Shown: positions 35,063 to 41,043 of the stretch, in pieces | How the letters are laid out: each line of letters starts with the position of its first letter | Position numbering within the stretch: the first letter of the stretch is position 1 | From: an uncultured bacterium | Lineage (GTDB): Bacteria; Cyanobacteriota; Vampirovibrionia; Gastranaerophilales; Gastranaerophilaceae | Length of the DNA: 41,043 bases | Direction: 5' to 3' | Assembly: GCA_949292185.1 (NCBI GenBank) | Contig: CASEYP010000033.1 | Location: 1 to 41,043 of the forward strand | Position numbers and translations under genes: made by a program | Notes under the pieces: generated by a model | What the model saw: only the letters and a program-made list of their open reading frames with translations | What the model was told of the DNA's origin: nothing | Database searches by the model: none

Positions 35063-36049
35063 GATTTTATCAGTTTCTTTATTCTCTTGTCTTATGTAGT
35101 CTATATACTCTAAAATCTTGTTGTAGTCTTCTTCTACTACGAGTACTCCTCTGATTTTTGATGCGTTTCTAATTCCTGCTATGTAGTATGGATAAAATTT
35201 TCTGAAAAATTTTATTGCAATTTTTTCACCACGAAGTTTAATTTCTTCATCAAGATGAAGCTTCATCATATCAAGTTTTTGTAAAATGTTTGGCGGTGGA
35301 AGTTTTTCTCCTGTTTTAAAATAGTGGGCTACTCTATGTATAAGAGTAGGATCACCAAGAACTCCACGGCCTATTGCAACTCCATCTGCCTTACTTTGTT
35401 CAATAGCTTCGATTGCTGTTTCTATTGATGTAATATCACCATTTGCAAAAACAGGAATGTCTACATTTTCTTTAAGTTGTTTTATTTTAGACCAGTCAGC
35501 TTTTCCTGCATAAAATTGAGATCTTGTTCTGGCGTGAATAGTTATAAATTCGGCTCCTGCTTCTTGCATTTGTTGCCCAAATTCTACAAAATTCATATCA
35601 TCTTGCGTGTAGCCTAATCTAAATTTTACGCTTACAGGTTTATCAGTACCTTCTTTTACAGCTTTAACAAGGTCTGCTGCAAGTTGTGGGTTTTTCATAA
35701 GAGCACAACCATCTTGACCTTTTACGACTTTATTTACGGGACAACCCATATTTATGTCTATCATATCTGCAAATTGGCTTAGATATTCTGAGGAGTATTT
35801 CATTAAGTGAGGTTTATGTCCGCAGATTTGATAAACTATCGGATGATGGTTCTCATCTAATTTTGTTATTTCTGTTTGAACATTTTGGGCTAAAAATTCC
35901 GAACTTATCATTTCTGTTGTTAAGAGTGCCTCTTTTGAGTATTTTCTGACTAGAGATCTTAAAACATAATCAGTTATTCCTGCCATTGGGGCTAGGGATA
36001 CTTTGCTTTTGATAAGTTTTTGGACTTGTGGGTTACTTCTTTGTTGCAT
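35051..36049 (-). CDS. dusB: tRNA-dihydrouridine synthase (DusB-like)
   Basis: This 332-residue FMN enzyme reduces uridines in the D-loop of tRNA. Family signatures are present: LAPMAGITDYVLRSL near residues 16-30, then INMGCPVNKVVKGQDGCALM near 97-116, which includes the catalytic Cys and the tRNA/FMN-binding Lys. FITIHARTRSQFYAGKADWS and VFANGDITS follow, and VAIGRGVLGDP near 223 completes the barrel. The start overlaps the end of the TPR gene by 17 bases, so the two are co-transcribed. Subfamily is by eye. Confidence 0.93.
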   Translation of the reverse strand: MQQRSNPQVQKLIKSKVSLAPMAGITDYVLRSLVRKYSKEALLTTEMISSEFLAQNVQTEITKLDENHHPIVYQICGHKPHLMKYSSEYLSQFADMIDINMGCPVNKVVKGQDGCALMKNPQLAADLVKAVKEGTDKPVSVKFRLGYTQDDMNFVEFGQQMQEAGAEFITIHARTRSQFYAGKADWSKIKQLKENVDIPVFANGDITSIETAIEAIEQSKADGVAIGRGVLGDPTLIHRVAHYFKTGEKLPPPNILQKLDMMKLHLDEEIKLRGEKIAIKFFRKFYPYYIAGIRNASKIRGVLVVEEDYNKILEYIDYIRQENKETDKILLS

Positions 36050-38168
36050 ATTCTTTTAATTCTTCAGAACGGGCTTTTGCATATTGTTTATATTCATCAT
36101 CTTGAACGTCAGAATTTGCATATTCTAAATAGTACTGGTAAGCTTCTTTGTATTTACCCAAAGCATCATAGTCTGAGGCTATAAGGTAATTACAGTTAGT
36201 GAAATCTTTATTTAGGCTATATGCTTTTTTAAGATCTGCAATAGCTTCGTTTCGTTTTTCCTTTGACTCATATATCATACCACGATAATATAATGCGTAT
36301 GAATTTTCCGGATCTTTTGATAATATTTCGTTAAACATTGCCAAACTTTCATCCAGTTTGTTTTCGTCAAATTTTGTTATTGCATCGTTTAGGTAATTTG
36401 ATTGTTCCATAGCCGTTATTGAATTTAGATATTCTACAGCTTGGGTGTTATTTTTATTAAATGTTATAGCTTTTTGCAAGTATAATTTTGCATTTTGGTA
36501 ATCTTCGTTTTCCCCGTATAGACAAGCTATATAGTATGCTATATCAGAATCTATAGGTTTTAGCGCTAGAGCTTTTTTATAGTATTCTATTGCATTTTGT
36601 TTGTCTCCGAGTTCTTGATAAGATGATGCAGCTCCAAGCATTGTATCTGCCGTTGGTGGGTCTATTGATAAATATATATTTATAGCATTTGGGTAATCTT
36701 TATTTTGAAAATATTCTGCGGCTTTTGCCATTTTATTATCATTATCCATAGATGAAATATTTTTTATTGTATTTGTAATTGTTTCATCTTTAGGAAATTT
36801 TACTTGTGCTGTTTTTAATGTATTTAGTGCTTCATCATATTTGTTTCCTTGAGCTTGTGCTAATGATAAGTTTACATACATTTCAGGGTCTTGAGTTTTT
36901 GCTGATTTGATTGCCTCGTTGTACATATATATTGCATTATCAATTTTGCCGTCTTTATGTAATTGGATTGCATAATCGTATAGGATTCCTGAAGGGTCTT
37001 GACTTGCCATTTGGGTATTTACGTATTCAACGAATTGTTCAGGGGTCATTAAACTTTTTGCGTTTTCAACCATTTGAGCTTTTAAGTATTCGTTATTCGG
37101 GTCAAGCGCTAAAACTTTTTTATATGCTTCTTGAGCAGTCTTATTTTCTCCAAGTTTTTCTAAGCATTGTGCTCTATATAAATTGGCATTTATATTATCA
37201 GGATATAAAATTAACACTGATTCATAAGCTTTGATAGCTGTTCTATAATCCCCTTTTTGTTGGTATAGGGTTCCTGTGTTAATTCTTGTGTTTATGTTTG
37301 AAGGATCTAAAGATTCAGCTTGCTTGTAGTAGGTAAGAGCTTCATCAAGTCTTCCTTCTTTTTGTAATATTGCCCCCATATTTGCATTAAGATTTGCATT
37401 ACTTGGCATACTGCTTACTTTCTTTTCAAAAGTTCTTTCTAGGGTATAAAGAATATCTTTGTTATCAGCTGTGGATTTTTCAAGTACATAGCTATACTCT
37501 TTTAGTGCATCATCAGAAGATCCCATATTATCTAAAATTTTTGCATAAGCAAGTCTTAAACTTAAATCTGATGGTGCAACAGCTAGAGCTTTTTTATAAT
37601 ACTCAGCGGCTTTTGGCTCGTTACCTAAAATCTTCATAATGTCGCCAACTTGTTCAAAACTACTTTTTTGGAGTTCTCTGCTTCCTAATGCTTGTGTAAA
37701 TTCATAAGCCGCAGCTGGAAAATTACCTTCGGCACGTAATTTTTTTGCTGTATCAAATCGGTTTTGAGGTGATTCATCAAAATTTATTGCGTCTAAACAT
37801 TTTGCTAAATTGTCTTGAACTTGATTTATTGCTGTTGCTGAATTTTGTACATAGTTAGGAGTAGGATAATACATTAAATAAAATAATGCACTTCTATAAT
37901 CATCAGCAGCTTTTGCCCAGTTTCTATCTTTGTTTGCGTATTCAGTTCCTCTTGCAAGATATGAGTTTACAAGCCCGATTCTTGCTGAGTTATCTAAATA
38001 ATTTATTCTGAGTGCACTTTTGAATTCGGTTATTGCTCCTGAATATTGATATTGTGACAGGTAACTTTGTCCAAGATCAAAATGCTCTTTAAAGTCAGCA
38101 AATGCTGCTCCATTTAATAAACAGAAAATAAGTGCAACTTTGGTAAGAGTTACTAATGATTTGTTCAT
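36033..38168 (-). CDS. large exported TPR protein
   Basis: The best start is ATG 38168 (AGGGAG upstream); a GTG 21 bases further up is less likely. This gives 711 residues. A signal peptide (SLVTLTKVALIFCLLNGAAF...) is followed by about 15 tetratricopeptide units covering nearly the whole length, for example AAEYYKKALAVAPSDLSLRL, EALTYYKQAESLDPSNINTR and AIEYYKKALALKPIDSDIAY. TPR arrays bind partner proteins; an exported one is probably an envelope scaffold. The gene is coupled to dus by overlap. Confidence 0.88.
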   Translation of the reverse strand: MNKSLVTLTKVALIFCLLNGAAFADFKEHFDLGQSYLSQYQYSGAITEFKSALRINYLDNSARIGLVNSYLARGTEYANKDRNWAKAADDYRSALFYLMYYPTPNYVQNSATAINQVQDNLAKCLDAINFDESPQNRFDTAKKLRAEGNFPAAAYEFTQALGSRELQKSSFEQVGDIMKILGNEPKAAEYYKKALAVAPSDLSLRLAYAKILDNMGSSDDALKEYSYVLEKSTADNKDILYTLERTFEKKVSSMPSNANLNANMGAILQKEGRLDEALTYYKQAESLDPSNINTRINTGTLYQQKGDYRTAIKAYESVLILYPDNINANLYRAQCLEKLGENKTAQEAYKKVLALDPNNEYLKAQMVENAKSLMTPEQFVEYVNTQMASQDPSGILYDYAIQLHKDGKIDNAIYMYNEAIKSAKTQDPEMYVNLSLAQAQGNKYDEALNTLKTAQVKFPKDETITNTIKNISSMDNDNKMAKAAEYFQNKDYPNAINIYLSIDPPTADTMLGAASSYQELGDKQNAIEYYKKALALKPIDSDIAYYIACLYGENEDYQNAKLYLQKAITFNKNNTQAVEYLNSITAMEQSNYLNDAITKFDENKLDESLAMFNEILSKDPENSYALYYRGMIYESKEKRNEAIADLKKAYSLNKDFTNCNYLIASDYDALGKYKEAYQYYLEYANSDVQDDEYKQYAKARSEELKEYATKK

Positions 38169-38254
38169 GTTTGCTCCCTTTCTTCGCACTATTTTATTAC
38201 AATTAATGTTTTCTGTATATACACAATCGGTTAATTGTAAATTTCTGTATATAA

Positions 38255-38297
38255 AACAAAAGAGTAAGATACAAATTATGCATCTTACTCTTTTGTT
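38255..38297. terminator. strong intrinsic terminator after the 47-residue gene
   Basis: A perfect 16-bp stem AACAAAAGAGTAAGAT / ATCTTACTCTTTTGTT with an 11-base loop. It lies just past the stop codon of the small minus-strand gene and before the TPR gene. Confidence 0.88.
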
Positions 38298-38314
38298 AAA
38301 TTTCAGGCTTGCTT

Positions 38315-38458
38315 TTATACATTAAAATCGTTTACTGAGATGAATTTCAAACATTCATCAAATAAATCCTGTAAAGGTTTAGAGACATCAATCTCGCCCA
38401 AATCTACTCTCGAAATTTCCATTGTTGCAGCAAGTGCTTCAGCCTGTGTTTTTTCCAT
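38315..38458 (-). CDS. 47-residue protein, unknown function
   Basis: The short frame reads MEKTQAEALAATMEISRVDL, then GEIDVSKPLQDLFDECLKFI and a short tail. AAGGAG lies 9 bases before the ATG and a strong terminator follows the stop, so it is a complete one-gene transcription unit. The protein is acidic and probably two helices. A 13-bp palindrome lies about 50 bases upstream. No family is recognised; regulator or adaptor roles are both possible. Confidence 0.7.
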   Translation of the reverse strand: MEKTQAEALAATMEISRVDLGEIDVSKPLQDLFDECLKFISVNDFNV

Positions 38459-38504
38459 ACCTAAATGCTCCTTATTTAATTGTCTTGGTCTTATATCCTT
38501 AATC

Positions 38505-38536
38505 TTAACAAGATATATATCGGTATATCTTGTTAA
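38505..38536. promoter_or_regulatory. palindrome upstream of the 47-residue gene
   Basis: TTAACAAGATATA / TATATCTTGTTAA, perfect 13-bp arms with a 6-base centre (TATCGG). It lacks a T-run, so it is more likely an operator or 5'-leader structure than a terminator. Confidence 0.5.
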
Positions 38537-38709
38537 AAACTTTAGCTATATTTTCTATAATTTTTATATAATCTCTTTAATCTTGATATATAAAGCTTTT
38601 GAGGCTGTTACAATTCTTAATATTGAATTAAAATACAAACTATAGCATAATTTTATTTTTTATGATAATATAATTCCGTAGTATTACTTTAATATAAGGA
38701 GATAAAAAA

Positions 38710-39246
38710 ATAGCTAACGATACTAGATCCGCAAGGGATAAGGACAAAACAATAATGAATGAGCGTATACGCTCTAAAGAAGTACGATTGATAGATGAAA
38801 ACGGAACAAATCATGGTATAGTTCCAACATCTCAAGCATTGGATATGGCTGATGAAGCTGGTTTGGATTTAGTATTGATAAGCCCTAATCAAGCTCCACC
38901 TGTTGCTAAAATCTTAGATTATGGAAAATATAAATATGAACTTGCTAAAAAAGCAAAAGAAGCTAAGAAAAAACAACATGTTGTGGAAGTTAAAGAAGTT
39001 AAAGTAAGATACAAAATTGACGTTCATGATTATGAAGTTCGATTGAAAAGTGTAAGAAAATTTATAGCTCAAGGAAATAAAGTAAAAATTGTTGTAATGC
39101 TTAGAGGAAGAGAAATGCAACATTCAAATCTTGCGTATGAGTTGGCAAACAGATTTATTGCAGATTTGGCAAATGATCCTATCCAAGTTGAGAAAAAACC
39201 AACATTAGAAGGTAGAAACGTTACTTTGTATTTAGCTGGTCAATAG
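38710..39246 (+). CDS. infC: translation initiation factor IF-3, probable AUA start
   Basis: The IF-3 core is clear: NERIRSKEVRLIDENG at the N-terminal domain, then KILDYGKYKYELAKKAKEAK in the linker and VKIVVMLRGREMQHSNLAYE in the C-terminal domain. IF-3 binds the 30S subunit and rejects wrong start codons. An ATG at 38755 gives 163 residues and has a possible AAGGA 10 bases upstream. However, a perfect AAGGAG (38696-38701) stands 8 bases before an in-frame ATA at 38710, giving 178 residues starting ANDTRSARDK after the initiator. Rare starts (AUU) are classic for infC, where IF-3 limits its own synthesis. Confidence 0.92.
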   Translation: MANDTRSARDKDKTIMNERIRSKEVRLIDENGTNHGIVPTSQALDMADEAGLDLVLISPNQAPPVAKILDYGKYKYELAKKAKEAKKKQHVVEVKEVKVRYKIDVHDYEVRLKSVRKFIAQGNKVKIVVMLRGREMQHSNLAYELANRFIADLANDPIQVEKKPTLEGRNVTLYLAGQ

Positions 39247-39322: not shown

Positions 39323-39398
39323 GCCGCAATAGCTCAGTTGGTAGAGCAAGGGACTGAAAATCCCTGTGTCCTTGGTTCAATTCCGAGTTGCGGCACCA
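39323..39398 (+). tRNA. tRNA-Phe (GAA)
   Basis: 76 bases with 7-bp acceptor stem GCCGCAA/TTGCGGC, D-arm AGCTCAGTTGGTAGAGC, and anticodon loop CTGAAAA (anticodon GAA). The T-arm contains GGTTCAATTCC. CCA is encoded. Confidence 0.97.
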
Positions 39399-39402
39399 TT
39401 AA

Positions 39403-39432
39403 AAAAAAAGAGAACTTCGGTTCTCTTTTTTT
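39403..39432 (+). terminator. terminator of tRNA-Phe
   Basis: AAAAAAAGAGAAC, UUCG tetraloop, GTTCTCTTTTTTT: a 13-bp stem with a T-run, 5 bases after the tRNA. Confidence 0.93.
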
Positions 39433-39702: not shown

Positions 39703-39820
39703 GTGAGTCGTTTGAGGTTTTTGAAAATTCTGCCTGTTAAAATTTTTAATTGATACAAAAGCGACACAATGCTCGGAAGTGATGTTCCAATTCTTCATCT
39801 TCAGAGTTAATGTGTTGCAC

Positions 39821-41043
39821 ATGGAAAACTGTTATATAAATATTAAAGAAATCGCACAGGCTAAGGGGTTAAAGAGCACTCGTTCAATCCGAATGGAAAT
39901 AAACAAACCTGAAAGCAAATATATTTCAAGGGAAGTCAAAGTTAACGGCGGTATCTCATACGAAATATTGTTTTCAAGTTTAGAACCTGAATTACAACAA
40001 AAACTTCGGGAATGCGAAACAAAATCAACGGCAATTGTTCCGTTGAATTACAAACCGCCTATTATTACAGATAAAGCAAGACAGACGGCAAATCACAGAA
40101 TGAACATTGTTAAAGCCGCACTTGAACACAGAAATAAATATCCGAGTATAAAAGAGGCTGATGCTGAATTTTTAGACCTGTATAATTCTGGATTGTATTT
40201 ACCAAAAGCATACGAATTTCTGGGCCGTATTTCAATCGGAACATTAAGAAGATACATACAAGCCTACAAGAAAACAGGCAACGCAGAATCCCTAATACCT
40301 CAATACAAAATAACAAAGCAGGGTGAGTATAACAGCATTTTAGATGACAATATGAAAAAAGTTCTGCTTGCTCTTTTACTTCATCAGAATAAATTCGGGT
40401 ACAATACGGCAATCAGGCTTGCAAAACAAGTATTGATTAAAAAAGGATATGATGAAGATGCTCTGCCGAGTAATATAACTTTCAAACGCTTTGCGGAACA
40501 TTTCAGAAGAAACCATTATGCGGAGTGGGTGTTAAGACGTGAGGGTATGAAAGCCTACCACGATAAGGTTGAACCATATATTGAGAGGGATATAAGTAAA
40601 ATAGAAGTTGGAGATGTGTTAATCGCAGACGGACACGTTCTAAACTTTCAAGTAATAAATCCGTTTACAGGAAAACCGACCAGAGCAACTTTGGTCGGTT
40701 TTTTAGACTGGAAATCAACAGCATTTGTCGGCTATGAAATTATGATGACTGAAAATACTCAGTGCATAGCCTCTGCCCTTAGAAATGCAATTATTAATTT
40801 AGGTATTATCCCGAAAGTAGTTTATCAGGATAATGGTAAAGCATTTAAGGCAAAGTATTTTCAATCTTGTGATTTTGACGAGGAGTGTTTTAACGGAGTG
40901 TATGCCAATTTAGGTATTCACTCCGTTTTTGCTAAACCATACAATGCACGTGCAAAAGTTATAGAAAGATTTTTCTTAGATTTTCAGGAAGAATTTGAGA
41001 AACTTATGCCAAGTTATATCGGTACTTCAATTGAAAACCGTCC
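39821..41043 (+). CDS. Mu-type DDE transposase (MuA-like), 5' part
   Basis: The frame is open from ATG 39821 to the window end, 407 codons. A Mu-type N-terminal DNA-binding region (NIKEIAQAKGLKSTRSIRME) is followed by a helical domain. The rve/integrase catalytic core follows: Asp270 in LIADGHVLNFQV, Asp337 in VYQDNGKAF, and Glu382 in ARAKVIERFF. The positions are close to those of phage Mu MuA (269, 336, 392). About 250 further residues are expected beyond the edge. It binds the end repeats and joins the element to new DNA, probably with a MuB-like ATPase encoded downstream. Confidence 0.93.
   Translation, partial: MENCYINIKEIAQAKGLKSTRSIRMEINKPESKYISREVKVNGGISYEILFSSLEPELQQKLRECETKSTAIVPLNYKPPIITDKARQTANHRMNIVKAALEHRNKYPSIKEADAEFLDLYNSGLYLPKAYEFLGRISIGTLRRYIQAYKKTGNAESLIPQYKITKQGEYNSILDDNMKKVLLALLLHQNKFGYNTAIRLAKQVLIKKGYDEDALPSNITFKRFAEHFRRNHYAEWVLRREGMKAYHDKVEPYIERDISKIEVGDVLIADGHVLNFQVINPFTGKPTRATLVGFLDWKSTAFVGYEIMMTENTQCIASALRNAIINLGIIPKVVYQDNGKAFKAKYFQSCDFDEECFNGVYANLGIHSVFAKPYNARAKVIERFFLDFQEEFEKLMPSYIGTSIENR

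Follow-up and report, generated by a model that had tools for sequence, protein, structure and literature searches.

FlgM is a small protein, often driven by sigma-28, with a variable N-terminus and a conserved helical C-terminus. Promoters of the sigma-28 type follow the consensus TAAAGTTT-n11-GCCGATAA, as given in the available text of PMC2859248. According to the available parts of PMC3787301 and PMC4040986, the flagellar gene subsets of Gastranaerophilales would not make a functional flagellum, and the incomplete sets of gut Gastranaerophilales are put down to loss and genome reduction. In the literature on this order's flagella, type III secretion, sigma-28/FliA and small proteins, the available text of the matches listed names neither the small gene described below nor a sigma-28 regulon.

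Here we present a small gene from a member of this order, located in the window, that is, the whole 41,043-nt stretch of DNA that was analysed. A sigma-28-type promoter lies upstream of the small gene, and the genome that carries it also encodes a sigma factor of the FliA type. The gene is conserved and protein-coding, and its product matched none of the known families searched (Pfam, NCBIfam, PHROGs, PADLOC and PDB sequences).

The small gene and its transcription unit

The small gene lies on the minus strand, between the gene for a TPR protein (which has a signal-like stretch at its N-terminus) and the divergent infC:

36033..38168, minus strand: TPR protein, downstream neighbour, ATG at 38168 (ORF list)
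38255..38297, minus strand: intrinsic terminator of the small gene, perfect 16-bp stem, loop of 11 (inverted-repeat search, folding)
38315..38458, minus strand: small gene encoding 47 aa, 47 codons, ATG to TAA (ORF list, homologues, alignments, dN/dS)
38468..38473, minus strand: ribosome-binding site AAGGAG (sequence; seen in relatives too)
38505..38536, no strand assigned: perfect 13-bp palindrome, loop of 6 (inverted-repeat search)
38517..38544, minus strand: putative sigma-28-type promoter (upstream comparisons; consensus in the available text of PMC2859248)
38710..39246, plus strand: infC (IF3), divergent neighbour, apparent AUA start codon (ORF list and sequence)

With the 47-residue protein as query against 59 relatives, the frame was found in its own genome and in 30 of 35 others from the genus (E up to 4e-4), the misses being G003, G005, G012, G017 and G027. 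With a 28-row profile, 40 of the 46 genus genomes gave a match of E 1e-9 or better; these five and G065 did not (the sole match in G005, E 0.68, was counted as absent). A search for infC in four of these six genomes (G003, G005, G012 and G017) found none, so the small-gene locus is probably unassembled there rather than lost. Protein length in the loci read is 34–59 aa. In alignments the N-terminal half varies and the C-terminal half keeps P-[LI]-Q-x-L-F-D, then F-[IV]-S, with few exceptions; P28, L32, F33, C36, I40 and S41 are invariant in 28 genus proteins. The sequence is under purifying selection (Nei–Gojobori; median dN/dS 0.23, from 142 pairs with pS between 0.1 and 0.55; pooled pN 0.14 versus pS 0.38). 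It is virtually certain that the small gene is a real coding gene, one that length filters could easily miss at 47 residues. An overlapping plus-strand (antisense) ORF of 101 aa was rejected as the gene, its frame being interrupted in all 18 relatives tested.

The ribosome-binding site sits in a context, ATTAAATAAGGAG, that is common to many genus loci. In relatives, the start was taken to be the earliest start codon that has a GGAG/AGGA-type site no more than 18 nt away, a rule that worked in 30/30 genus, 18/19 further and 47/47 named-record loci (the exception, L086, is a weak match and was dropped); since starts were picked by a ribosome-site rule, conservation of this site is partly built in.

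The arms of the terminator extend to 19 nt with one mismatch, and a 65-nt minus-strand RNA containing the hairpin has a folding energy of −26.1 kcal/mol. The 3′ arm of the stem ends in CTCTTTTGTT and is followed by TTATATAC. A simple terminator scan (loop 3–8, at least five T in the eight nucleotides after the stem) missed this hairpin. Across 300 dinucleotide shuffles of 38191–38700, the maximum length of perfect inverted repeats attained 13 bp in one case and 16 bp in none, so both inverted repeats are above chance in this interval; perfect repeats of at least 13 bp (loop up to 12) occur at seven places in the window. A downstream hairpin of at least 10 bp, with changed sequence, is present in 22 of 28 relatives tested.

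The small gene is adjoined by infC in 28/30 genus and 17/18 further loci, and by the TPR gene in 25/30 and 16/18, respectively. It is still there without a TPR neighbour in L009, L013, L019, L020 and L023 (genus) and in L073 and L084 (further loci). In two of these genus loci, L019 and L020, the gene, its promoter box and a terminator-like hairpin occur in another neighbourhood without infC or TPR gene, so the unit stands alone. A sequence-only reading of the window had proposed an overlooked 47-residue gene with its own ribosome site and a perfect 16-bp terminator stem, together a complete small transcription unit. The comparisons bear out the gene and its unit: both elements are present, and the frame is kept in related genomes, which is the opposite of a frame lost while the DNA around it is kept.

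Several side observations concern the surrounding DNA. The apparent AUA start of infC at 38710 (plus strand) has the context GGAGATAAAAAAATAGCTAACGAT; an in-frame ATA is found at this position in all 25 loci readable by pattern (own locus included; 45 tried), preceded by an ATC codon in two of them. Upstream of the TPR gene (38190–38255), TTACAATTA..TTGTGTATATACA and TTGTAATA[AG]AAT are kept, by eye, in many genus loci and are probably this gene's own promoter. A perfect 13-bp hairpin (39403–39432) lies 3′ of a tRNA gene (39323–39395), and an ORF that appears transposase-like by eye (39779–41043) runs past the window end.

Promoter, palindrome and the sigma-28-type box

The promoter in the window has a −35 element, TAAAGTTT, at 38537–38544, a 12-nt spacer and a −10 element, ACCGATAT, at 38517–38524. 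Compared with the sigma-28 consensus it matches at 8/8 positions of the −35 and 6/8 of the −10, with a spacer of 12 instead of 11. When upstream regions were aligned, TAAAGTTT-N11/12-[GAT]CCGATA was kept and the palindrome was not; the promoter, in the form TAAAGTTT-N11/12-GCCGATA, overlaps the palindrome. A relaxed box was found within 200 nt upstream in 40 of 45 loci (window included; 100 shuffles gave a mean of 0.07 and a maximum of 1), 32–76 nt ahead of the start codon. The five other loci have near variants, for example CCGTTA or GCCGAATA.

The left arm of the palindrome consists of the promoter spacer plus one base, the loop is the −10 core CCGATA and the right arm comes next. No perfect repeat of at least 13 bp was found in the 120 nt upstream of the gene in the 28 relatives tested, out of 44 distinct ones retrieved, the longest being 10 bp, and a search of viral contigs for the exact palindrome found none. 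On these sequences the palindrome looks private to the source genome. The unit had been described as regulated on the strength of this palindrome. The perfect 13-bp repeat does exist, above shuffle chance, and the unit is complete, but the palindrome did not hold up as a regulatory element, as 0/28 relatives have it and a conserved sigma-28-type promoter overlaps it. This promoter, rather than the palindrome, is likely to be the control element. Judging by the sequence of the box, we consider it very probable that the small gene is under sigma-28 control.

Across 46 genus genomes, the strict box occurs 115 times, versus 12 for a reversed-pattern control. Recurring families behind boxes, many of them 45–90 nt away, include large proteins starting MG[ML]AASQAR, a 122-aa protein, small proteins of 51, 46, 57 and about 72 aa, a GGDEF protein, an HD-domain protein and others. 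Some boxes lie inside genes or have no ORF behind them, and most scanned genes downstream of boxes have no Pfam family match. No box turned up when 60 kb of the own contig surrounding the FlhA locus were scanned.

The own genome encodes a FliA/WhiG-family sigma factor (TIGR02479 above curated cut-off; G000:C7:156171-156833), in which sigma-70 regions 2, 3 and 4 were found and whose gene adjoins that of an OmpA-domain protein. Of 147 relatives, counting the own genome, 132 have a FliA/WhiG match above the curated cut-off. There are eight sigma-family matches in the own genome; by analogy with the consensus from other bacteria, FliA, and not another of the eight, would be the reader of the box. 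Among flagellin upstream regions of flagellated relatives a clear box was seen in 1 of 14, a result that counts against sigma-28 control; the box is therefore linked to FliA by consensus and not by a local positive control.

Boxes were also observed at other kinds of locus. A second small gene of the same genome (51 aa; L051 1303–1458, minus strand) follows a sigma-28 box and comes with a ribosome site and a downstream hairpin; it has relatives in L147, L165, L190, L199 and L208. At L049 1501–1620 (plus strand), a sigma-28 box without ORF is followed by an intergenic stretch of ~100 nt with TTTCCTCCTTTTCCC, which is complementary to Shine–Dalgarno sequences; the same arrangement is found in L164, L218, L117, L145, L162, L189, L195 and L200. 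The three inspected closely (L049, L164 and L218) have a GGAACC..GGTTCC terminator and gave no Rfam match at E 0.1. The TTTCCTCCTTTTCCC motif occurs in 9 of 360 loci, all nine gathered via the box pattern. This ORF-less stretch is a candidate sigma-28-driven small RNA.

Distribution and relation to the flagellum

A 43-row profile searched against 383 genomes of the family matched 155 with an E value of at most 0.01; for four of these the match lay only in the range E 0.001–0.01. The matches fall in 17 of 41 genera: the own genus and 12 others clearly, g34, g46 and g84 weakly (E 0.002–0.008), and g52 through one genome with 7% contamination. In order- and class-level genomes the best small-gene match with the 28-row profile was not below E 0.06, and in 25 genomes outside the clade with infC found, neither box nor TPR gene was seen upstream of infC, as far as the loci reach. 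The 47 named-record loci carrying the small gene are labelled Candidatus Gastranaerophilales, Melainabacteria, cyanobacterium or unclassified bacterium; two named records are labelled Muribaculaceae and Clostridiaceae, the Muribaculaceae label being probably wrong.

Flagellin (PF00669) is likewise found in 155 of the same 383 genomes, and the two occur together in 4, with ~63 expected if they were independent. The shared four are G014 and G343, with 6% and 7% contamination; G344, with 4% and a single flagellin match; and G191, with 5% and a weak match to the small gene. In a tree of the FlhA-type protein from 40 genomes, all 15 sampled carriers form one group (support 100/100), outside which the order-level genomes fall; this is the tree of one gene. 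Because all sampled carriers are one clade on this tree, the mutual exclusion of small gene and flagellin amounts to one phylogenetic event, and the repeated co-loss that it had seemed to suggest was rejected. Seven flagellin-less genomes without the small gene are placed in several other parts of the tree, which argues that the gene is not tied to flagellum loss as such; this pattern takes six changes on the tree, at least five of them forced. Among the genomes searched, the protein family is restricted to one clade of Gastranaerophilales, and this clade is without flagellin genes.

A flagellin search of the own genome gave no match, and FHIPEP is present in 137 of 147 genomes. Locus L224 of the own genome (5034–10933, plus strand) carries FliE, FliF, an unassigned 330-aa protein in the FliG position, FliH and FlhA. 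FliE, FliF, FliH and FlhA score above Pfam cut-offs; FliF, FliH and FlhA fall below NCBI equivalog cut-offs, and FlhA is under both the FlhA and the SctV cut-offs. By its predicted gene content, L224 is a divergent export locus of flagellar origin, and its genome has no flagellin match.

The protein and its possible role

Family searches with 28 genus members gave best E values of 0.088 (Pfam), 0.099 (NCBIfam) and 0.14 (PHROGs). PADLOC, run on 43 members, gave nothing beyond chance level (lowest AbiEi, E 0.004 in one), and PDB sequence profiles gave best E values of 0.92 and 0.18. Modelled with AlphaFold2 (45 rows; mean pLDDT 70, pTM 0.36), the window protein has one confident helix, residues 26–43, and a weak helix, residues 5–19; mean pLDDT is 82 for residues 21–30 and 88 for residues 31–40. 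Helix 26–43 is amphipathic, with a hydrophobic moment of 0.45, a value reached by 2.3% of 5000 shuffles. Against the PDB, a Foldseek search with the 47-residue model returned nothing at E 10 or less.

In one genus, tandem proteins of 119 and 97 aa (L352 322–999, plus strand; L353 792–1471, minus strand) have the same C-terminal motif, and no box was found in the stretches read around them. That these proteins end in the motif fits a C-terminal docking tail for a common partner. We regard it as evenly balanced whether the small protein acts through its C-terminal helix on a partner.

Overall, the data are probably best explained by a genuine clade-specific small gene, with a helix-docking product, in a sigma-28-type regulon that has outlived the flagellum. 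Comparison between genomes gives the coding capacity, the selection, the conserved box and the conserved terminator hairpin. From this conservation we infer that the gene would be transcribed alone from a sigma-28 (FliA/SigD-type) promoter and stop at its own terminator. It would be a lineage-specific part of a sigma-28-type regulon that survives in the absence of a flagellum. The regulon would have been kept together with the flagellum-derived export locus after the filament was lost. Behind a variable N-terminal half, we infer that the amphipathic C-terminal helix (26–43) most likely docks on a partner protein of this programme, and the favoured role would be that of an adaptor or regulator acting through this helix within the sigma-28/export programme.

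More specific readings are conceivable. It is doubtful that the clade lost its flagellum and repurposed both the sigma-28 programme and the export machine, the microprotein, born in the clade with its own sigma-28 promoter, being a dedicated feedback regulator (a new substitute for FlgM) or dedicated cargo. Taken on its own, the cargo version, in which the flagellum-derived export apparatus would send the protein out as its substrate or as one of its small structural parts, is unlikely. Sigma-28 classically drives late flagellar substrates, which counts in its favour, as do the retention of export apparatus genes without flagellin and the presence of the same box, at similar spacing, ahead of several other proteins of unknown family. 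However, the motif also ends the 97- and 119-residue paralogues, more as a docking tail would than a filament or needle subunit.

We regard it as attractive but rather improbable that the protein is a functional FlgM analogue, that is, a sigma-28-induced anti-sigma-28 providing negative feedback, whose C-terminal helix would bind FliA and whose N-terminus would perhaps serve export. The sigma-28-type promoter, small size, variable N-terminus and conserved C-terminal helix are consistent with this, the own genome has no FlgM match at E 0.01, and an NGEY-x-x-x-D stretch in some genera recalls the FlgM signature by eye. However, none of the members scanned (28 of the genus and five of other genera) matches the FlgM model, and profile–profile comparison with FlgM-like proteins of the class gave P 0.3 and 0.15; membership of the FlgM family (PF04316) was rejected on these results. 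In 108 genomes PF04316 gave 8 matches at E 0.01 and 2 above cut-off, neither of these in the taxonomic family. A class-level FlgM profile gave 6 matches at E 0.1 in 48 genomes, 2 of them in the family (0.063 and 0.086), and nothing better than E 0.06 in 37 family genomes, flagellated or not, so there is no sign of a swap. The clade genomes G067 and G080 have a separate protein of 97 aa that matches FlgM below cut-off (E about 0.002) and could be a FlgM of their own.

The palindrome as the operator of a dimeric regulator, as implied by the sequence-only reading, is very improbable: perfect 13-bp arms are rare in shuffles and overlap the promoter, but they are absent in 28/28 relatives, including three compared whose coding sequence is 90–94% identical to that of the window. 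Least probable of all is that the ORF encodes a leader peptide and that its translation governs whether transcription continues into the TPR gene, since the ORF, although directly upstream of the terminator and the TPR gene, remains without this neighbour in 5/30 genus and 2/18 further loci, shows no regulatory codon run by eye and has residues under purifying selection.

Returning to the regulon member with a docking helix, a sigma-28-type promoter found throughout the clade, on a microprotein under selection and on a set of further genes, suggests a working programme with another output instead of loss and genome reduction, and the genes behind the boxes provide a short list for finding that output. 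The microprotein itself adds a well-supported small protein family that is absent from the libraries searched.

Compared with FlgM (PF04316), the system described here is similar in its small protein, sigma-28-type promoter, variable N-terminus and conserved C-terminal helix; it differs in that the protein is about half the length and has neither a family match nor profile–profile similarity. With the FliA/SigD regulons of flagellated bacteria it shares the promoter consensus (available text of PMC2859248) and a box before GGDEF and HD-domain proteins, whereas the source genome has no flagellin match and most scanned downstream genes have no Pfam family. The Gastranaerophilales of PMC3787301 and PMC4040986 belong to the same order; the words 'sigma' and 'type III' do not occur in the available text of these papers, and the clade presented here appears to have a sigma-28-type regulon as well.
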